A DNA stretch of 64,000 bases from Thalassospira sp. (GTDB lineage Bacteria; Pseudomonadota; Alphaproteobacteria; Rhodospirillales; Thalassospiraceae). The position numbers and the translations under genes are program-made. The first letter of the stretch is position 1. Each line of letters begins with the position of its first letter. The DNA is taken from contig NZ_JAUYHK010000019.1 in the NCBI RefSeq assembly GCF_030690045.1, positions 1 to 64,000 of the forward strand, read 5' to 3'. The notes beneath the pieces are model-generated. The model was not told the DNA's origin. It did no database searches and saw only the letters and a program-made list of their open reading frames with translations. Positions 4,949 to 49,906 of this stretch are shown in pieces.

Positions 4949-6658
4949 ATGAACGAACAACGTAACCTGTGGATCGCGATTGCAACGTCGGTCGTGATTC
5001 TGCTGGGGTTCCAATTCTTTTTCGCACCCGAACCCAGTGATGCGGTTCGCGAGGCGCAGATCAGCGAAGAATTGGGAGTCAATGGCACCGTACCGCAACC
5101 GTCGGCGACAACCCCGACAGTGCCGGGCATGCCAGCGGTTCCGACCATTAATCGTGACGCCGCCCTTGCCGGTTCGCCGCGCATCAGCATTGATACGCCG
5201 CGGGTCAAGGGATCGATTCGTCTGGTCGGCAGCCTGATTGATGATATTCAGCTTCAGGATTATCGCGAAACCGAAGACGATAACAGCCCGCTGATCCATG
5301 TGCTTAATCCGGCTGGCGGGAATGACGCCTATTTCGCCGAATTTGGCTGGGTCGCCTCGGACCGCAATATTGTTGTCCCCAATAGTGAAACCCAATGGCA
5401 GGCCGACAGCGAAACCCTGACGCCGGAAAATCCGGTGACCCTGTCATGGGATAATGGCGCGGGGCTGGTTTTTGAACGCACGATTTCAATTGATGAAAAC
5501 TATATGTTTTCGGTCAAACAAAGCGTCCAAAATGACAGCGGCAGCAATGTTGTCCTGCATCCCTATGGCCTGATTTCGCGCAAAGGCCTGCCGACAACAG
5601 CCGGGTTTTACATTCTTCATGAAGGCCCGCTGGGCGTGATTGATGGCACCCTGACGGAAATCGACTATGACGACCTGGTCGATTCCAAAGCTGCGAAAGA
5701 ATATAAAACCACCGGTGGCTGGCTGGGTCTTACCGACAAATACTGGCTGGTGGCCCTTGCCCCGACGCAGGACGAAGCCCTGACGGCGCGGTTCAGCCAT
5801 CATCTTGAAAACAATACCGACAAATTCCAGACAGATTATCTGGGCAGCGGGCGCGATATTGCCAGCGGCACATCGGCAACATCGGAAACCCGCCTGTTTG
5901 CCGGGGCCAAGGAAGTCACCCTTCTGGACCAATATGCCGAAGAATACGGGATCACCAATTTCGATCTGGCGATTGACTTTGGCTGGTTTTATTTCCTGAC
6001 CAAGCCGTTCTTCCTGTTTCTGCAATGGCTGAACCATCTGGTCGGGAATTTCGGGGTGTCGATCCTGATCTTTACCGTTCTGGTCAAGGCGGTGCTGTAT
6101 CCGTTGGCGAACAAATCGTACAAATCCATGAGTGCGATGAAAAAATTGCAGCCGCAGATCGTGAAGCTGCGCGAACAGTTCGCTGATGACCGGCAGCGCC
6201 AGCAGCAGGAAATGATGGCGATCTACAAGCGTGAAAAGATCAATCCGGCGTCGGGTTGCTTGCCGATTGTCGTTCAGATTCCGGTGTTCTTTGCGCTGTA
6301 CAAGGTTCTGTTTGTCAGCATCGAAATGCGTCATGCGCCGTTCTTTGGCTGGATTCAGGATTTGTCGGCACCCGATCCGACATCGCTGTTTAATCTGTTT
6401 GGCTTGATTCCGTGGGATCCGCCCCAGATGTTGATGATTGGCGTATGGCCGCTGATCATGGGGGTTACCATGTTCCTGCAACAGAAACTCAATCCGGCGC
6501 CTGCCGATCCGACCCAGGCCAAGATCATGATGTTCCTGCCGTTGATTTTCACCGTCATGCTGGCCAGTTTCCCGGCCGGTCTGGTGATTTACTGGGCATG
6601 GAACAACCTGCTGTCGATCGCGCAACAGCGCTATATCATGTATAAAATGGGGATGTGA
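4949..6658 (+). CDS. yidC: Membrane protein insertase YidC
   Basis: Inserts inner-membrane proteins with or after SecYEG. I chose ATG 4949 (MNEQRNLWIAI), preceded by GGAAAGAGG, because this is the family N-terminus. The first TM helix (ATSVVILLGFQFFF) is followed by a large periplasmic domain (about residues 30-330), and then the conserved 60KD_IMP core with five TM segments beginning near FDLAIDFGWFYFLTKPFF. The core includes NFGVSILIFTVLVKAVLYPL, the cytoplasmic KSMSAMKKLQPQI coiled hairpin and the C-terminal PAGLVIYWAWNNLLSIAQQ. At 569 residues it has the normal Gram-negative length. It sits in the rnpA-yidD-yidC-engB unit. Confidence 0.96.
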   Translation: MNEQRNLWIAIATSVVILLGFQFFFAPEPSDAVREAQISEELGVNGTVPQPSATTPTVPGMPAVPTINRDAALAGSPRISIDTPRVKGSIRLVGSLIDDIQLQDYRETEDDNSPLIHVLNPAGGNDAYFAEFGWVASDRNIVVPNSETQWQADSETLTPENPVTLSWDNGAGLVFERTISIDENYMFSVKQSVQNDSGSNVVLHPYGLISRKGLPTTAGFYILHEGPLGVIDGTLTEIDYDDLVDSKAAKEYKTTGGWLGLTDKYWLVALAPTQDEALTARFSHHLENNTDKFQTDYLGSGRDIASGTSATSETRLFAGAKEVTLLDQYAEEYGITNFDLAIDFGWFYFLTKPFFLFLQWLNHLVGNFGVSILIFTVLVKAVLYPLANKSYKSMSAMKKLQPQIVKLREQFADDRQRQQQEMMAIYKREKINPASGCLPIVVQIPVFFALYKVLFVSIEMRHAPFFGWIQDLSAPDPTSLFNLFGLIPWDPPQMLMIGVWPLIMGVTMFLQQKLNPAPADPTQAKIMMFLPLIFTVMLASFPAGLVIYWAWNNLLSIAQQRYIMYKMGM

Positions 6659-6733
6659 TCCCCGTCACGGGGGCAAAATGCAGATGATATGCGTTTTGCC
6701 CCCGAGGCTTCCCCGGACGGGGGAAGGAAATCG

Positions 6734-13375: not shown

Positions 13376-13879
13376 TCAGGAAATGATGGCGCGCAACATC
13401 CATGCTGCTTCTTCATGTACGCCGACCCGTTCTGTCAGCATGTCGGCGGTTTTGACATCATCCACTTCGTCGGCGGCACCAACACCGTCACGCAGAAGGC
13501 AGGCCATTTTTTCATGATCCTCGACCAGTTCCTGCACCATGTCATTGGCGTTGATCAGGGATGTCTGGTCGGTGATGATGGAATCTTCCATCATGGTGGC
13601 AAGGCCGGTCGGTGCGGAAAATCCGATGGCGCGGATGCGTTCGGCCATGTCATCAATCGCCGTATTCAAATCTTCGTATTGTTCTTCGGTCATTTTGTGC
13701 AGCGAATAAAACGCCGGACCGACAACATTCCAGTGAACACCACGAATTTTGGCATATAGCACATGGGACGATCCGACAATTTTCGTCAACATCTGCGCCA
13801 GTTTCTTGCGGTCCTTGCGGTCCACGCCGGATTTGACCGGAAATTCCCTGGCAATGTTCTGCATGCTGCTCTGTGCCAT
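13376..13879 (-). CDS. dps: DNA starvation/stationary-phase protection protein Dps
   Basis: Ferritin-like dodecamer protein that oxidises and stores iron and shields DNA during starvation and oxidative stress. The 167 residues show the Dps ferroxidase signature split across two subunits: KIRGVHWNVVGPAFYSLH followed by DDMAERIRAIG. The N-terminal SVDRKDRKKL-type basic stretch could contact DNA. AGGAG precedes the ATG. An EcfG-type promoter (GGAAC-N16-CGTT) lies about 60-90 bp upstream, and the divergent neighbour has one too. A clear terminator follows. Identification is firm. Confidence 0.94.
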   Translation of the reverse strand: MAQSSMQNIAREFPVKSGVDRKDRKKLAQMLTKIVGSSHVLYAKIRGVHWNVVGPAFYSLHKMTEEQYEDLNTAIDDMAERIRAIGFSAPTGLATMMEDSIITDQTSLINANDMVQELVEDHEKMACLLRDGVGAADEVDDVKTADMLTERVGVHEEAAWMLRAIIS

Positions 13880-13942: not shown

Positions 13943-13967
13943 AACGTGCGGTATGGGTGAAGGTTCC
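13943..13967 (-). promoter_or_regulatory. EcfG-type general stress promoter of dps
   Basis: Reading the minus strand: GGAAC (13967-13963), 16 nt, CGTT (13946-13943). This matches exactly the GGAAC-N16/17-CGTT consensus known for EcfG (PhyR-NepR-controlled) promoters in Alphaproteobacteria, and it points at dps 64 bp downstream. Confidence 0.75.
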
Positions 13968-13988
13968 ACAAAATAAACCGCCTTAATG

Positions 13989-14013
13989 GGAACAAATTTT
14001 TCGATCATTCGTT
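13989..14013 (+). promoter_or_regulatory. EcfG-type general stress promoter of the LEA-like gene
   Basis: GGAAC at 13989-13993, 16 nt, CGTT at 14010-14013, an exact consensus match with the start codon 60 bp downstream. It is divergent from the dps promoter, with 21 bp between their -35 elements. Confidence 0.75.
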
Positions 14014-15480: not shown

Positions 15481-15826
15481 CGGGGGCTCCTTGTGACGGT
15501 CAATCCACCGTTAAAACGGCCTGTAACCTTTGACAGGCCGGGATTTGGAGGATTTTGGAGTAAGTGACGTTATCGCCATTTCTTCCATAAAACAACCAGA
15601 TAACGGCAGTTCTGTTCCTTGAGTGAAATTGGCATTTTACTCAAAATAAATATTATATGTTTGTTGATTATAGTAAGTATTTTGAGGGTATTTCGTTGGT
15701 TGATCATATTGATGATGTTAATAATGTGGCGGATATTCAATATATTACCAAAGTTAAGTACGATATTTTACTTTTAATGCCTTATTTGTTTGTTATGGTT
15801 TTTTCATCCAACAAATGGAGGTTGTG
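15481..15826. other. AT-rich intergenic region upstream of the ECF sigma gene
   Basis: About 345 bp between the RHH gene and the ECF sigma gene, strikingly AT-rich from about 15590 to 15810. It must hold both divergent promoters. I found no GGAAC-N16/17-CGTT motif. A 56-codon open frame (15657-15827, starting MFVDYSKYFEGISL) runs through it and its TGA overlaps the sigma ATG, but it has no Shine-Dalgarno sequence and may be chance. Confidence 0.5.
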
Positions 15827-16354
15827 ATGTCTGACCAAGTTATGAATGAAATTGAAGGTCATATTCCCGCACTGCGTCGCCATGCCTGCCGTTTGACAGG
15901 GGCGATGGATCGGGCTGATGATCTGGTTCAGGATACGCTCGTCAAGGCGCTTAGCAACAGGGACAAGTTCGAGGAAGGCACCAGCCTGAAGGCATGGTTG
16001 CACCGGATTTTGTTCAACACCTTTATTTCGCTGGTTCGCCGGGAGAAAACCCGTGGCGTTCACATGGACTGGGACGATATGGGTGATGTTTACGGACATG
16101 GCGGCAACCAGATAGCACGCCTGCAATTGCGCGATGCTGACCGGGTGCTGCGCGGTTTGCCTGCCCAGGAAAAACAGGCACTGATGCTGACGGCTGTCAA
16201 TGATATGTCCTATCAGGATGCCGCCCGCGAAATGAATGTCGAAGTCGGTACGGTCAAATCCCGTGTCGGTCGGGCCCGCCGCAAATTGCGCGCATCGGTT
16301 GGCATGATTGAAGCGCGCCAGCAGTTTTCGAAGTTTGTTCCGGAGGCCGCGTAA
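15827..16354 (+). CDS. ECF-type RNA polymerase sigma factor
   Basis: The 175-residue protein has sigma region 2 (RRHACRLTGAMDRADDLVQD, then SLKAWLHRILFNTFISLVRR, residues about 15-80) and region 4 (LPAQEKQALMLTAVNDMSYQDAARE, then VGTVKSRVGRARRKL, about 112-160), with no region 1 or 3. This is a group 4 (ECF) sigma factor resembling the EcfG/RpoE-like alphaproteobacterial types. ATG 15827 is 5 nt after GGAGG. Its stop overlaps the next ORF (TAATG), which looks like an anti-sigma factor. Canonical phyR and nepR are not in the window, so whether this is EcfG or a paralogue cannot be decided. Confidence 0.88.
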   Translation: MSDQVMNEIEGHIPALRRHACRLTGAMDRADDLVQDTLVKALSNRDKFEEGTSLKAWLHRILFNTFISLVRREKTRGVHMDWDDMGDVYGHGGNQIARLQLRDADRVLRGLPAQEKQALMLTAVNDMSYQDAAREMNVEVGTVKSRVGRARRKLRASVGMIEARQQFSKFVPEAA

Positions 16355-16632
16355 TGCCCTGCACACTTGCCATTTACGGCAAGGAGGACATCCTTGATTA
16401 TATGTGCGGGGATTTGCCCCCCGAAGAACGGCGCGACATTGAAAATCTTGCGCAAAACGATCCGATGGCGGCCTGCACGATTCGCGAAATCAGGGAACGG
16501 CTGCTGCTGAATCGCCAGCCGGTTGATCTGATGGCCTATCGCCGGTGGCAGAAACTGCATGAACTGGCTGAAAATGCCGGGCTGTTTCAAAATATGTCAG
16601 GTGTAAGATCGATACGTCCGAAAGAGTATTGA
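16354..16632 (+). CDS. Small soluble anti-sigma-factor-like protein
   Basis: 92 residues, overlapping the sigma gene by 1 nt. The segment DILDYMCGDLPPEERRDIEN followed by LAQNDPMAACTIREI matches the look of anti-sigma N-terminal domains (a YxxGxLxxxExxxxExxLxxDP pattern). There is no TM helix, no zinc-binding HxxxCxxC and no NepR-like sequence. Role as partner of the preceding sigma is inferred from overlap and pattern. It could instead be a cofactor of the sigma factor. Confidence 0.6.
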   Translation: MPCTLAIYGKEDILDYMCGDLPPEERRDIENLAQNDPMAACTIREIRERLLLNRQPVDLMAYRRWQKLHELAENAGLFQNMSGVRSIRPKEY

Positions 16633-21312: not shown

Positions 21313-21900
21313 TTATACGGGCGAGGACACGGGCATAGTGTCATAGCCGGTGGTCAGGCGCACCGCCGTGCCATCGGACAGGAAAAACCGTTCCCACAAA
21401 ATATAACGATCCATGATTGGCATGGGCGGGCCATCGCGACCCGATGTGGCGAAAACAATATGATCGGCCTGATCATCGTGCCAACCCATATCATGCAGGC
21501 TTTTTTCGGCGGCGGCAATTTCAGGGGTGGCAAACCGCCACAGCGATTGCCCCAAAAGATCGTCATCGGGACGTTGCCATTCTTCCTGCCGGGGCAGGGA
21601 AGAACATAACAGGCGATGGCTGCGATCCTCGATCAGATGAACCCGCTGGCGCGACTGGCAGACAAGACGTTTGATCGCCTGATCCAGCCGGAAATTTCGA
21701 TTGCGCGTCATCATGTCCTGCAACAGTTTGTGGTGCAGCGGGGCCGGGTTTTGCTGCCCCTGTTCCCAGCGCGAGACGGTGGCCTGCGTCACGCCCAGAA
21801 TATCGGCAAGGCGATCCTGTTTGATCTCGGATGCGCGGCGCCATTGCCGCAACTGGCGGCCAAATTCGGCATCGGCATCAAGGGGCGGCAGGCGTTCCAT
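21313..21900 (-). CDS. XRE-family transcriptional regulator with C-terminal sensory-like domain
   Basis: 195 residues. The N-terminal helix-turn-helix (residues about 11-60) reads FGRQLRQWRRASEIKQDRLA then DILGVTQATVSRWEQGQQNP, a typical Cro/CI-type fold. The C-terminal half has a PAS-like look (LIEDRSHRLLCSSLPRQ..., SLWRFATPEIAAAE), which could bind a ligand. AAGGAT lies directly before the ATG. It is on the same strand as rsmD (22 nt gap) and upstream of the MFS transporter, which it may control (inference). Confidence 0.78.
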   Translation of the reverse strand: MERLPPLDADAEFGRQLRQWRRASEIKQDRLADILGVTQATVSRWEQGQQNPAPLHHKLLQDMMTRNRNFRLDQAIKRLVCQSRQRVHLIEDRSHRLLCSSLPRQEEWQRPDDDLLGQSLWRFATPEIAAAEKSLHDMGWHDDQADHIVFATSGRDGPPMPIMDRYILWERFFLSDGTAVRLTTGYDTMPVSSPV

Positions 21901-22503: not shown

Positions 22504-24258
22504 CTAATCCTTTTTGCCGCGAGAAAATCCACCCCGTCCGGCTGCCGGTTTGGCGGCTCCGCCGGACCGGTTGCCCGCCGGGCGATTGCCTTGCGGTTTG
22601 CCGCCTGCGGGTTTGGACGATTCCGGTTTGTTACTTGCGGGTTTATTGCCAGCCGGTTTGCTGCCAAGGGGGCGGTTTCCAGCGGGCTTGCTGCCCAGTG
22701 GTTTGTTACCGAGTGGCTTGTTTCCATCGGGTTTACGCCCATCCGATTTTCGTCCGTCCGGTTTGCTGCCGGGTCGGGCGGGTCGGTTTGAGAAATCCGG
22801 TCGGCTCCGGTTTTCGTCTCGTGTCGACCGGTCAGGTGCATCGCCGCGCCCCTGACGGATGACGCGGTCATTCCGGTCGCCGCGTTCGGGACGTTCGGCC
22901 CGTTCTGCGCCATAGCGGCCCCGGCCTTTGTTGGTCGGGCGCTCGCCGCTGCTTCTGTCCGCATCGCGGTCGTCATTGCCGCGCCACGGTGTGGACCGGA
23001 CGATGCGTTCACCTGATGATACCGGGGCGGTCGGGCGGGTTTTGCCATCCCGGCGGTCGCGCGGGGTACGGTCGTCGCGGCCACCGCGCATATCCTGACT
23101 GTGATACCCTTCGTTGCGGCTGTTGTTGTCGCGATAATCGCGGTTGTCACGATGATTATCGTCTTCCGGGCGATCCCGATCCCGTGCTTCGTCACGGTCG
23201 CGTTGATAGTCGCGTTGTTGCCGGGCTTCACGGGCTTCGCGCGCTTCGGGGCCCCCGCGATTATCCTGCTTGTGTTTGCTTTCGTCGTGCCAGTTTGACG
23301 AACGCGGCAACATCTTGCGTTTCGGCTTGGCGCGGGCGGTGCCGATTTTGGCCCCGGATTGCTTTTCCGATACCTTGCCGGTATCGCCCTTGAAAAACGA
23401 TGACAGTTGTTCCTTCATCACCTTGCCGGTAATTTCATCGACATCGCCCGGTGCCAGATTACCCAGATGGAACGGGCCATAAGACAGCCGCATCAGGCGT
23501 GTGACCGGCCATCCCAGATGTTCCATCACCTTGCGGATTTCGCGGTTTTTGCCTTCGCGCAGCGTGATCGTCATCCAGGCGTTGGAATCTTTTTGCACAT
23601 CGATTTCGGCCTGAATCGATCCATAATGAATGCCGTCAACCGTAATGCCCTTGGCCAGTTCGGCCAGTTTTGATTCGTCAATCCGCCCATGCACCCGCAC
23701 CCGATACCGCCGCGCCCAGCCGGTGGCAGGCAGTTCAAGATACCGCGCCAGTTCGCCGTCATTGGTCAGCAGCAACAAGCCTTCGGAATTCAGGTCAAGC
23801 CGTCCGACCGAAATCACACGGGGCATATAGGGCGGCAAATGTTCAAATACCGTTTCACGGCCCTGTTCGTCGCGATGGCTGGTGACCAATCCGCGTTTTT
23901 TAAACAGACGCCACAAACGCGGCTGTTCTTTTTTCGGCAGGGGTTTGCCATCAATCAGGATGATATCGGCATCGGTGACGGTGGTGGCCGGGCTGTCAAG
24001 CCTGCGGCCATTAAGCCGCACCCGGCCTTCGGAAATCATGCGTTCGGCATCGCGCCGCGAACAGACCCCGGACCGCGCAATGCGTTTGGCAATGCGTTCG
24101 GATTCCAGTTCTTCGGCTTCTGCGTCTTCGTCGATGGCCTCGGGCTCTTCTGCGGCGCTATCAGTATCGGTAAACAGCGCCTCATCGGTTTCCGAGTCGA
24201 AATCGGAATCCGGGGCCGGATCAAGGGCGTCATCGGGGGTTTTGGGGGTGTCGTTCAT
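22504..24258 (-). CDS. rluB: 23S rRNA pseudouridine synthase (RluB family) with long disordered basic tail
   Basis: Residues about 55-110 are an S4 RNA-binding domain (RIAKRIARSGVCSRRDAERM). The pseudouridine synthase domain follows (about 115-290), with the catalytic Asp in GRLDLNSEGLLLLTNDGELA, plus LREGKNREIRKVMEHLG. The remaining roughly 290 residues are low-complexity, rich in Arg, Asp, Asn, Lys, Gly and Pro. They end in a run of about a dozen KPxGN/S pentads, likely a disordered RNA-binding tail. An acidic N-terminal segment (about 1-50) is also disordered. ATG 24258 overlaps the amidotransferase stop (ATGA). RluE/F-type specificity is less likely. Confidence 0.88.
   Translation of the reverse strand: MNDTPKTPDDALDPAPDSDFDSETDEALFTDTDSAAEEPEAIDEDAEAEELESERIAKRIARSGVCSRRDAERMISEGRVRLNGRRLDSPATTVTDADIILIDGKPLPKKEQPRLWRLFKKRGLVTSHRDEQGRETVFEHLPPYMPRVISVGRLDLNSEGLLLLTNDGELARYLELPATGWARRYRVRVHGRIDESKLAELAKGITVDGIHYGSIQAEIDVQKDSNAWMTITLREGKNREIRKVMEHLGWPVTRLMRLSYGPFHLGNLAPGDVDEITGKVMKEQLSSFFKGDTGKVSEKQSGAKIGTARAKPKRKMLPRSSNWHDESKHKQDNRGGPEAREAREARQQRDYQRDRDEARDRDRPEDDNHRDNRDYRDNNSRNEGYHSQDMRGGRDDRTPRDRRDGKTRPTAPVSSGERIVRSTPWRGNDDRDADRSSGERPTNKGRGRYGAERAERPERGDRNDRVIRQGRGDAPDRSTRDENRSRPDFSNRPARPGSKPDGRKSDGRKPDGNKPLGNKPLGSKPAGNRPLGSKPAGNKPASNKPESSKPAGGKPQGNRPAGNRSGGAAKPAAGRGGFSRGKKD
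22565..22770 (-). repeat. 15-bp coding repeats (KPxGN/S pentads) in the rluB tail
   Basis: The minus strand encodes about 12-13 successive pentapeptides such as KPDGN, KPLGN, KPLGS, KPAGN, KPASN. The DNA units are similar but not identical, so this is an older or selected repeat that could vary in length between strains. Confidence 0.75.
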
Positions 24259-24983: not shown

Positions 24984-25137
24984 GGTGGCTGTTTATCCCG
25001 CGGTCGCGCTGCCCGCAACGGCTTAATCTGTGTTATCGTCTGATCGCTTGACCCGACAGGGTCCAGATTGCAATCTTTGTCGGCAAAAGAAAACAGTAAC
25101 CTTGGGCACGCCCAGCCAGACCGGGATGGAATCAGCA

Positions 25138-25590
25138 ATGAGTGCAGACAGTTTCATGGATATGGCACTGGAAGAGGCGCGTGCGGCGGCCCGGCGTGGC
25201 GAGGTGCCGGTGGGGGCTGTTCTGGTCGATTCCGATAGCGGTGAAGTTCTGGCACGGGCTGGAAACCTGACCGAGGAATTGAACGACCCGACGGCGCACG
25301 CCGAAATTCTGGTGATCCGGGCGGCGGCCGGGGCCAAAGGTGAACCGCGTCTGCCCAATTGCGATCTGTATGTGACGCTTGAGCCCTGCCCGATGTGTGC
25401 AGCCGCGATTTCCTTTGCCCGTTTGCGTCGGGTTTATTTCGGGGCCTATGACCCCAAAAGCGGCGGCATCGACCACGGCCCGCGCATTTTTGAAAGCACA
25501 AGCTGCCATCACAGGCCCGATGTTTATGGCGGGATTGGCGAGGTGGAAGCCAGCCGGTTGCTGCGGGAATTTTTCGGGTCTTTACGGTAG
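25138..25590 (+). CDS. tadA: tRNA-specific adenosine deaminase
   Basis: Zinc enzyme deaminating A34 to inosine in tRNA-Arg(ACG). From ATG 25138 (MSADSFMDMALEEARAAARRGE) it is 150 residues, the normal TadA size. The zinc site is THAE-like (PTAHAEILVI, His ligand and catalytic Glu) plus EPCPMCAAAI (two Cys). An in-frame start at 25030 would add 36 residues unlike the family, while GGA lies 7 nt before 25138. It is divergent from the amidotransferase gene. Confidence 0.94.
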   Translation: MSADSFMDMALEEARAAARRGEVPVGAVLVDSDSGEVLARAGNLTEELNDPTAHAEILVIRAAAGAKGEPRLPNCDLYVTLEPCPMCAAAISFARLRRVYFGAYDPKSGGIDHGPRIFESTSCHHRPDVYGGIGEVEASRLLREFFGSLR

Positions 25591-25614
25591 GGCTGGATTC
25601 TTCCTGTGACGGCA

Positions 25615-25640
25615 ATGTCGATAAAAAATAGAATCGACAT
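25615..25640. other. Palindromic site downstream of tadA
   Basis: Perfect 8-bp inverted repeat ATGTCGAT (25615-25622) / ATCGACAT (25633-25640) with a 10-nt A-rich spacer, 20 bp upstream of the EcfG-type -35 element. It could be a weak terminator or an operator. Confidence 0.35.
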
Positions 25641-25659
25641 GGTCGTTTTATCATCCGTC

Positions 25660-25685
25660 GGAACGATAGACTTTAGTTTGCCGTT
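25660..25685 (+). promoter_or_regulatory. EcfG-type promoter upstream of the DASS transporter
   Basis: GGAAC (25660-25664), 17 nt, CGTT (25682-25685), within the known N16/17 spacing. A start site about 7 nt downstream (about 25692) would begin the transcript just before the structured leader. Confidence 0.65.
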
Positions 25686-25705
25686 TTTGCGCCAGATCAT
25701 ATAAC

Positions 25706-25812
25706 GGCTTGATCTTGCAAGGTAAGGTTGCCTTGCGATCACCGCCCATCAGGGCTGGTGGCACTTATAAGATCAAGCCAAGACCAGACAGGACGGCACC
25801 ATGCCCTGTCGG
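25706..25812 (+). ncRNA. Candidate cis-regulatory RNA: three-way junction plus SD-sequestering hairpin
   Basis: P1 is an 11-bp perfect pair GGCTTGATCTT (25706-25716) / AAGATCAAGCC (25769-25779). Inside it P2 is GCAAGG (25717-25722) / CCTTGC (25731-25736), and P3 is CACCGCCC (25740-25747) / GGGC-T-GGTG (25752-25760) with loop ATCA. The P3-P1 joint is GCACTTAT. A further hairpin, CC-A-GACAGG (25784-25792) / CCTGTCGG (25805-25812), takes in the AGG of the Shine-Dalgarno sequence and places ATG 25801 in its loop. This is the architecture of a translational riboswitch. I cannot assign a known class. Confidence 0.55.
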
Positions 25813-27339
25813 CGTATGATGGTGACCCAAATGACCAATGATGCCCCTCCGCGCGGGACGGATTTGTCTACCGCGCCGAAAAAATCCGGGCCGTTCAAAC
25901 CGGGCCTGCTAATTGCAATCATTTCCCTTTTTGCCATCATGGCGCTGCCAACTCCGGAAGGTCTTCCGCTGGCCGGGCAGCGCATGTTGGCAATTTTTGT
26001 TTTTGCTGTGGTGATATGGATCACCGAGGCGCTTGATTATGCGATCAGCGCGGTGGTAATTGCCGCCCTGATGGCGGTGTTGCTTGGCCTGTCACCTGAT
26101 GTGGCCGATCCGGCAACGCTGATGGGAACACCCAAGGGACTTTCCGCTGCCATCAACGGGTTTAGCAGCCGTGCCTTGACACTGGTGGCCGCGGCCTTGT
26201 TCCTTTCTGCCGCGATGACGCTGACCGGGCTGGACCGGCGCATTGCGTTAAATGTGTTGTCGCGTGTCGGATCGAAAACCAGCCATGTGTTGATTGGTGG
26301 TATTGTCGTGGCCACTTTGCTGGCCTTTCTGGTGCCCAGTGCGACGGCCCGTGCGGCGGCGGTGATTCCGATCATGATGGGGATCATTGTTGCCTTTGGG
26401 GCGGGTAAGCAAAGCCGTTTTGCCGGTCTGTTGATCATTACGACGGTTCAGGCCGTCAGCATCTGGAATGTGGGTATCAAGACGGCGGCGGCCCAGAATA
26501 TGGTCGCCATCGGATTTCTACAGCGTGAATTCGGTCTGGATATCACCTGGCTGGACTGGTTCATTGCCGCCGCCCCGTTTTCGCTGGTGATGTCGGTCGG
26601 GCTGTATTTCATCATGATGTGGATGATGCCCCCCGAACATGATGAATTGCCAGGTGGCAAGGAATCGATCACCAAATCCCTGTCGGAAATCGGGCCGATG
26701 AGTGCCCCGGAAAAACGTCTGCTGGCGATTTCGCTGACATTGGTATTTTGCTGGGCAACCGAAGGCATTTTGCACAGTTTTGACAGTTCCACCATCACGG
26801 TGATTGCCGTGGCGTTGCTGTTCCTGCCGGGGATCGGTGTGATGAACTGGAAGGCCGCGAACCCGCAAATTCCGTGGGGCACGATTGTGCTGTTCGGGGT
26901 GGGGATCAGTCTTGGCTCCGCCTTGCTGATGACCGGGGCGGCACCGTGGCTCGCACGGTTCGCGGTGGATCTGTTCGGCCTGTCGGCCTTGGGGCCGCTG
27001 ACGATTCTGGCAGTGCTGGGGGTGTTTCTGATCATCATTCATCTGGGCTTTGCCAGTGCCACTGCCTTGGCATCGGCAATGATTCCAATTGTGATGTCGG
27101 TGTTGCAACAGGTGGAAACGGCGGGCATCAATGCCTTTGGCATGACGATCCTGCTGCAATTCGTCGTTAGTTTCGGCTTTATCCTGCCGGTCAATTCACC
27201 GCAAGGCATGGTGGCGCATGGCACCGGTACCTTTATGGTGCGCGATTTTATCCGCACCGGTCTGGCTCTGACGGTTCTGGCCTATGTGCTGACCCTGATT
27301 TTCGGGGCGACCTACTGGAAATGGTTGGGCCTGATCTGA
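25801..27339 (+). CDS. DASS/SLC13-family anion transporter
   Basis: 512 residues with about 12 TM helices. After a polar N-terminus (about 35 aa) come GLLIAIISLFAIMALPTPEG and QRMLAIFVFAVVIWITEALDY, the usual DASS opening. Two re-entrant substrate regions appear as FLVPSATARAAAVIPIMMG and FASATALASAMIPIVMSVL, matching the S-(N/A)-T motifs of Na+-coupled dicarboxylate/sulfate transporters but with Ala in place of Asn (SAT). The substrate (dicarboxylate, sulfate or other anion) is not determined. ATG 25801 has AGGA 7 nt upstream, inside a hairpin. ATG 25831 is the alternative. A terminator follows. Confidence 0.85.
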   Translation: MPCRRMMVTQMTNDAPPRGTDLSTAPKKSGPFKPGLLIAIISLFAIMALPTPEGLPLAGQRMLAIFVFAVVIWITEALDYAISAVVIAALMAVLLGLSPDVADPATLMGTPKGLSAAINGFSSRALTLVAAALFLSAAMTLTGLDRRIALNVLSRVGSKTSHVLIGGIVVATLLAFLVPSATARAAAVIPIMMGIIVAFGAGKQSRFAGLLIITTVQAVSIWNVGIKTAAAQNMVAIGFLQREFGLDITWLDWFIAAAPFSLVMSVGLYFIMMWMMPPEHDELPGGKESITKSLSEIGPMSAPEKRLLAISLTLVFCWATEGILHSFDSSTITVIAVALLFLPGIGVMNWKAANPQIPWGTIVLFGVGISLGSALLMTGAAPWLARFAVDLFGLSALGPLTILAVLGVFLIIIHLGFASATALASAMIPIVMSVLQQVETAGINAFGMTILLQFVVSFGFILPVNSPQGMVAHGTGTFMVRDFIRTGLALTVLAYVLTLIFGATYWKWLGLI

Positions 27340-49817: not shown

Positions 49818-49840
49818 CCGGGGCTGGTTTCATATTGTGA

Positions 49841-49880
49841 ACCGGACGGACGGACGGCACACGCCGTCCGTCCGGTTTTC
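49841..49880 (+). terminator. Strong terminator after the XRE gene
   Basis: GGACGGACGGC / GCCGTCCGTCC, extended by ACC/GGT, then TTTTCC (about 49841-49880). The GGAC unit repeats three times in the left arm. Confidence 0.85.
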
Positions 49881-49906
49881 CGGTCATGGTGTTTTACCGA
49901 ATCCTG

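Follow-up and report, generated by a model that had tools for sequence, protein, structure and literature searches.

A stable three-way junction behind an ECF-type promoter motif 5' of a DASS-family symporter gene in Thalassospira, tentatively read as a passive structured leader

The region 5' of a gene for a DASS-family sodium/anion symporter in Thalassospira sp. harbors a three-way junction whose predicted fold exceeds chance and which directly follows an ECF/EcfG-type promoter motif. It lies in a 64-kb stretch of DNA, hereafter called the window (64,000 nt), of a genome of 4.23 Mb in 23 contigs. The best explanation, tentative at a rough probability of 0.42, is that of a passive structured 5' UTR, specific to this lineage, which stands behind an ECF-type stress promoter and acts passively or does nothing important. 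A translational riboswitch, as proposed in a sequence-only reading of this DNA, was not supported: there was no homologous leader at six orthologs or in samples of the genus, order and class, no match in Rfam and no alternative fold that ties the closing stem to the Shine-Dalgarno sequence, and the hairpin thought to mask that sequence is probably positioned 5' of the start codon. The locus contains the following features:

25609-25646, plus strand: inverted repeat 3' of a tadA-like gene, a possible terminator (TTT after the stem; not called by the terminator scan)
25660-25685, plus strand: ECF/EcfG-type promoter motif GGAAC-N17-CGTT (sequence, pattern match)
25678-25705, plus strand: rival sigma70-like promoter TTGCCG-N16-TATAAC, read from the sequence by eye; transcription from it would begin at about 25712, within the P1 5' strand
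25706-25779, plus strand: three-way junction of P1 (25706-25716/25769-25779), P2 (25717-25736) and P3 (25740-25760), from sequence and folding
25784-25812, plus strand: hairpin P4 around AGGA and ATG 25801, probably 5' of the working start codon
25831-27339, plus strand: DASS-family sodium/anion symporter gene (PF00939, TIGR00785; ortholog-consistent start ATG 25831, reading frame open from ATG 25801)

The DASS protein scored above the curated cutoffs of both models (PF00939: 357.5 bits, cutoff 27; TIGR00785: 243.3, cutoff 198.6). The upstream neighbor of the leader and of the DASS reading frame (25801-27339) is a tadA-like deaminase gene (25030-25590), which with a score of 104 remained below the cutoff of 150 of the NCBIfam TadA model. 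If the inverted repeat at 25609-25646 is a terminator, it would possibly split the tadA-like gene from the DASS unit. Further upstream, a 584-aa reading frame on the minus strand (22504-24258) looks by eye like a pseudouridine synthase whose tail, rich in R, D, G and K, is very long and of low complexity.

The 11-bp perfect closing stem and the two hairpins that it encloses, as described in the sequence-only reading, are all present and can be read directly from the sequence. P1 is formed by GGCTTGATCTT (25706-25716) and AAGATCAAGCC (25769-25779), 11 bp without mismatch and with Watson-Crick pairs only. P2 (GCAAGG/CCTTGC, 25717-25722/25731-25736) has an 8-nt loop, which the folding program shortens to 4 nt by lengthening the stem to 8 bp, and P3 (CACC-GCCC/GGGC-T-GGTG, 25740-25760) carries an ATCA loop and a single bulge. 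In the computed fold the pairing probabilities were about 0.95 for P1, 0.98 for P2 and 0.99 for P3. Downstream of the junction, P4 is built from CC-A-GACAGG (25784-25792) and CCTGTCGG (25805-25812), with ATG 25801 inside its loop. A candidate leader-peptide reading frame starting at TTG 25715 is open for 34 codons and has no other support.

That such stems are hard to explain by chance held when the fold was compared with shuffled sequences, even after allowing for the picking of the best place, and the margin is not huge. The segment 25692-25840 reached -59.2 kcal/mol, its shuffles -41.4 on average (z = -4.7). In plus-strand shuffles of the window, none of 22 reached the -20.6 of the leader (mean of the best folds -15.6, sd 1.6, extreme -19.0). 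Six two-strand shuffles likewise did not reach the leader's -21.1, the best of them coming within 1 kcal/mol (-20.3, followed by -20.0 and -19.7). Once corrected for GC, 5 of the 21,312 segments of 74 nt on the two strands of the window matched or surpassed the leader; they belong to two other loci. No place in the window other than these two, 49825-49898 and 6637-6710, has a GC-corrected fold that outdoes the leader's, and at the former a perfect inverted repeat of 14 bp is present. Taken alone, a perfect inverted repeat of 11 bp is not rare in the window; with loops of up to 80 nt, 15 pairs of at least 11 bp were found at 14 places, that of the leader included. Measured over 139 nt, the leader gave z = -3.7 from ATG 25801 and z = -5.0 from ATG 25831. 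The first value was nearly matched by 2 of 16 other folded DASS leaders, both from Pseudomonas (-3.6 and -3.4). These two (L042 and L046) were the ones below -3, and three more (L034, L040, L045) lay between -2 and -3, with folds that differ from the one described here. DASS leaders from the genus (L005, L007, L009, L010, L035) ranged from -1.6 to -0.3.

Relatives of the leader were searched in genome samples of increasing breadth. The genus sample holds one genome per species, some of them near-identical at the compared loci, so that its rows are not independent, and the samples at genus, order and class level overlap. Leader DNA matched in 2 of 29 genus genomes, namely its own genome, where it is single copy, and a 33-nt stretch of G012, with no other copy. 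The G012 match (L003) was rejected as a leader homolog, as it lies inside a coding sequence, by eye one for riboflavin synthesis. R1, a covariance model built for the three-way junction from a single sequence entered twice, which limits its reach to near relatives, recovered the window's own copy and no other credible one. It was run on 29 genomes of the family (E up to 1), 317 of the order (E up to 0.05) and 385 of the class (E up to 0.02); the stricter filters at order and class level lose weak matches. Its extra weak matches (three in the family, one in the order, one in the class) were antisense in coding sequence where examined. Those of L078 and L080, within a 252-aa reading frame, of L081, within a 457-aa reading frame, and of L084, within a gene encoding a CobS N-terminal domain, were taken as chance, as was that of L079 on the basis of an alignment to R1 identical to that of L078.

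DASS orthologs with 75-78 percent identity are encoded in six other genomes of the genus, and R1 had no match in any of their leaders. The same was true for the 19 DASS loci searched alongside the window, three of which are places represented twice; L006 is the same place as L034. The intergenic DNA of the six orthologs did not align to the leader region above shuffles, which says little at this distance because the intergenic DNA of the dps region, described below, aligns in only one of these six genomes (G009); elsewhere among the six, alignment is limited to the start of the gene, though the dps promoter boxes are kept in all six. The distance from the tadA-like gene to the DASS start is 240 nt here (to ATG 25831). 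In L007 and L035, the loci whose alignment reaches the end of tadA, it is 88 and 89 nt, and the longer spacing here is consistent with an added segment in this genome. The tadA gene before DASS aligns only in part in L035 (116 nt) and almost not at all in L009 and L010; a remnant similar to its end can be made out by eye in the latter two. This neighbor seems lost or broken in all three. That the leader is unlike known riboswitch classes was borne out by Rfam, which gave no match at the gathering score in the window and none at E up to 10 in 25560-25860. Phage and plasmid collections contained no leader match at E up to 1e-5, and no viral contig carried the exact P1 arms at a gap of 40-60 nt. 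A mobile hairpin or MITE was ruled out by the single genomic copy and by flanks with no clear target-site duplication by eye. Among the papers searched, none joined a riboswitch with the DASS family, and those that mention both Thalassospira and riboswitches did not deal with this leader, judging by titles and abstract openings. Within the genomes searched, the unit of promoter and structured leader is, judged by sequence, specific to this lineage.

The same results allow a reading in which the dyad has no function at the RNA level: inserted or scrambled DNA may have left it behind, or its fold may come from the tail of the distribution, in a fast-evolving intergenic region. We regard this as unlikely, though it comes second among the explanations considered. 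The single copy in one genome, the failure of the orthologous intergenic regions to align and the two-strand shuffles that come so close argue for it, as do the exclusively Watson-Crick pairs of P1 and an opposite strand that is nearly as stable (-37.5 compared to -39.9). Against it speak the placement between a promoter motif, which the dyad directly follows, and a gene, the failure of all 22 plus-strand shuffles to reach the same stability, and a single copy that, with no clear target-site duplication, is unlike a mobile hairpin.

The EcfG-type promoter claimed in the sequence-only reading was confirmed insofar as the GGAAC and CGTT boxes are exact at 25660-25685 and the promoter class is conserved at dps in the genus. 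The -35 and -10 elements are those of general stress promoters of Alphaproteobacteria as quoted from two sources: the spacer of 17 differs from the 16 of the EcfG-class consensus GGAAC-N16-CGTT given in PMC7083833, and fits the motif GGAAC-N17-20-GTT given in PMC6599016. Genome-wide, the motif was not enriched, with 71 sites compared to about 64 expected by simple arithmetic and 241 in a backwards control, and since this count is near chance a single GGAAC-CGTT site is weak evidence. Of these 71 sites, 30 could be placed with a rough gene caller: 6 were correctly oriented 5' of a gene, 1 was otherwise intergenic and 23 were in coding sequence. Sites were also seen at L082, at 4028 (minus strand) and 5627 (plus strand), 5' of genes that by eye encode TRAP-type transporter subunits and flank a MocR-like regulator gene. 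Two further features of the window bear on the promoter:

13943-14013, both strands: divergent GGAAC-N16-CGTT sites between dps (13376-13879, minus strand) and a gene for a small exported protein (from 14061, plus strand)
15815-16354, plus strand: ECF sigma factor gene with matches to PF04542, PF08281 and PF22029 (PhyR_sigma2)

Both promoters of the dps region (N16/17) were kept in 25 of 25 Thalassospira loci, own included, while their spacers diverge; the loci (L091-L115) include some from near-identical genomes, and 4 of the 29 genomes yielded no locus. Sites of 26 nt, as at the leader, occur among these conserved promoters as well (L106, L107, L112, L113). The conservation of the class at dps and the placement of the 30 located genome sites render the leader promoter more credible, and we consider GGAAC-N17-CGTT a credible promoter of the DASS leader. 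It was absent 5' of the DASS gene in all six genus orthologs, both with GGAAC-N15-18-[CG]GTT and with a looser pattern. Since both dps promoters are present in these same six genomes (L096, L099, L106, L107, L108, L110), a shared DASS promoter should have been visible there.

The ECF sigma factor gene is located between the dps region and the DASS locus, 10 kb from the leader, and its product is the likely reader of the GGAAC/CGTT promoters. At least one PF22029-type protein was found in each of the 29 genus genomes, and in the own genome this sigma factor is the only one. The NepR model, which does match in Caulobacter, had no match in the own genome at E up to 0.001. With the sigma factor as the sole PF22029 protein and NepR not detected, a canonical PhyR-NepR-EcfG circuit does not emerge from these searches, and because of the latter the promoter is named ECF/EcfG-type rather than EcfG. 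Directly 3' of the sigma factor gene (region 15815-16632), a 92-aa reading frame shows a resemblance to anti-sigma factors that is below cutoff only.

The sigma70-like promoter TTGCCG-N16-TATAAC was omitted by the promoter scan, which requires a T at the last position of the -10 element. It is central to an explanation at the level of DNA, in which CTTGATCTTGCAAG (25708-25721) and the inverted CTTGATCTTATAAG (25764-25777) would form an operator pair that binds a repressor just 3' of TATAAC (25700-25705), perhaps with looping. The -10-like TATAAC adjoins the first arm, the arms are 16 nt long and 88 percent complementary, both show outer symmetry (CTTG/CAAG or CTTA/CAAG), and dyads containing TTGATC are visible by eye before some ortholog genes (L009, L010, L045, L046). 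However, no other exact copy of an arm (14-mer) exists in the genome and copies with one mismatch were as frequent as in a backwards control (3 each). The directly adjacent genes examined include no regulator, the nearest by eye being an HTH reading frame at 21313-21900, and P2 and P3 would be left unexplained. We hold an operator pair to be improbable, and less probable than the absence of any RNA function.

The position of the start codon bears on whether P4 could mask the Shine-Dalgarno sequence. In the six genus orthologs (L005-L010) an ATG is found exactly 26 residues before the conserved GL, counting these in. The matching ATG in the window is 25831, preceded by GGTGA at 25821-25825; in L005 the 26-residue ATG is preceded by AGGAG. 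Since L005 and L010 have a further in-frame ATG upstream, the choice of start is not forced. A simple codon score picked 25816, which is likewise downstream of P4, and ATG 25831 lies 19 nt beyond the P4 end. These comparisons point to ATG 25831 rather than 25801 as the working DASS start. If either 25831 or 25816 is right, P4 would mask no working ribosome-binding site, because both are downstream of it. Of the proposed Shine-Dalgarno-masking hairpin, the structure itself with AGGA and ATG 25801 thus stood, whereas the working Shine-Dalgarno sequence is probably elsewhere.

Constrained folding of the presumed transcript 25692-25900 revealed no mutually exclusive fold that ties P1 to the Shine-Dalgarno sequence or the start. 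The probability of P4 was 0.60 with P1 free and 0.81 with the 5' strand of P1 blocked, and 0.94 in the shorter transcript 25692-25840. Unpaired probabilities of the four AGGA bases were 0.01/0.21/0.63/0.44 with P1 free compared to 0.01/0.28/0.86/0.59 with P1 blocked, i.e. the A and the first G are mostly paired either way and the last two bases become somewhat more open. Pairing of GGTGA and ATG 25831 changed by at most 0.03. According to the folding, an early hairpin (25694-25699/25710-25715) can form during synthesis and is then displaced by P1.

A riboswitch or other sensing leader, responding to a ligand, an ion or temperature and controlling DASS translation, could draw on the displacement of this early hairpin as the chain grows, on the two AGGA bases that open when P1 is blocked and on the stable multi-helix junction in the leader of a transporter gene. 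Junctional riboswitches of the purine and c-di-GMP-I type consist of a closing P1 and two hairpins. The leader shares with them a P1-closed three-way junction in a transporter 5' UTR, and differs in having no Rfam match even at E 10, no core conserved across genomes, with no credible relative in any sample, and no alternative fold linked to the ribosome-binding site. Blocking of P1 leaves P4 closed and the pairing at ATG 25831 unchanged, and P4 is upstream of the ortholog-consistent start. Such a leader is very improbable here. Slightly more remote still is its particular form as a recent, lineage-specific sensing RNA under the general-stress ECF promoter, which would couple the uptake of dicarboxylate or another anion to a stress signal via a fold not in Rfam. 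The least probable of the explanations is a stress-induced small RNA that spans the junction and stops short of the gene, which would suit a compact stable fold right after a promoter, but 25560-25860 contains no terminator-like site, no T run follows P1, and searches at genus and family level found no homologs.

The passive structured 5' UTR is ranked above the absence of RNA function, followed by the operator pair, the sensing leader and the small RNA. In the passive UTR, a general-stress ECF sigma factor would read GGAAC-N17-CGTT, and the DASS message would start at about 25692. Its 5' UTR of about 139 nt (to ATG 25831) would include the stable three-way junction, which would occupy about 75 nt from roughly the 15th base. 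Close to the 5' end, this invariant fold may space or protect the message, with a possible effect on message life, or have no important role; it would not be a ligand-gated switch on the Shine-Dalgarno sequence. The exceptional fold, the P1 probability of 0.95, a promoter class that is real in the genus and a P4 that is not opened by blocking P1 argue for the passive UTR. The motif that is not enriched genome-wide and the promoter and leader that are missing at the six orthologs count against it, and so does TATAAC, which abuts P1, as a start from this element would drop the 5' strand of P1. Elements that stabilize a message at its 5' end usually sit closer than about 14 nt to that end, and the start of P1 about 14 nt from the presumed end is a further point against the passive UTR. 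In ompA-type leaders, 5' stem-loops stabilize bacterial messages. The leader described here resembles them in its stable predicted fold, unconditional and close to the presumed 5' end. It differs in the roughly 14 nt between the predicted start and P1, which leave the end not tightly paired.

The case shows how orthologous leaders, ortholog starts and constrained folding can put to the test a convincing riboswitch-like drawing made from a single sequence. If the junction is only a structured 5' UTR, it would have little significance beyond the DASS gene. The GGAAC/CGTT promoters that are kept around dps across Thalassospira loci, in a group where NepR was not found in the genome studied here, may inform the stress response of the group more generally.
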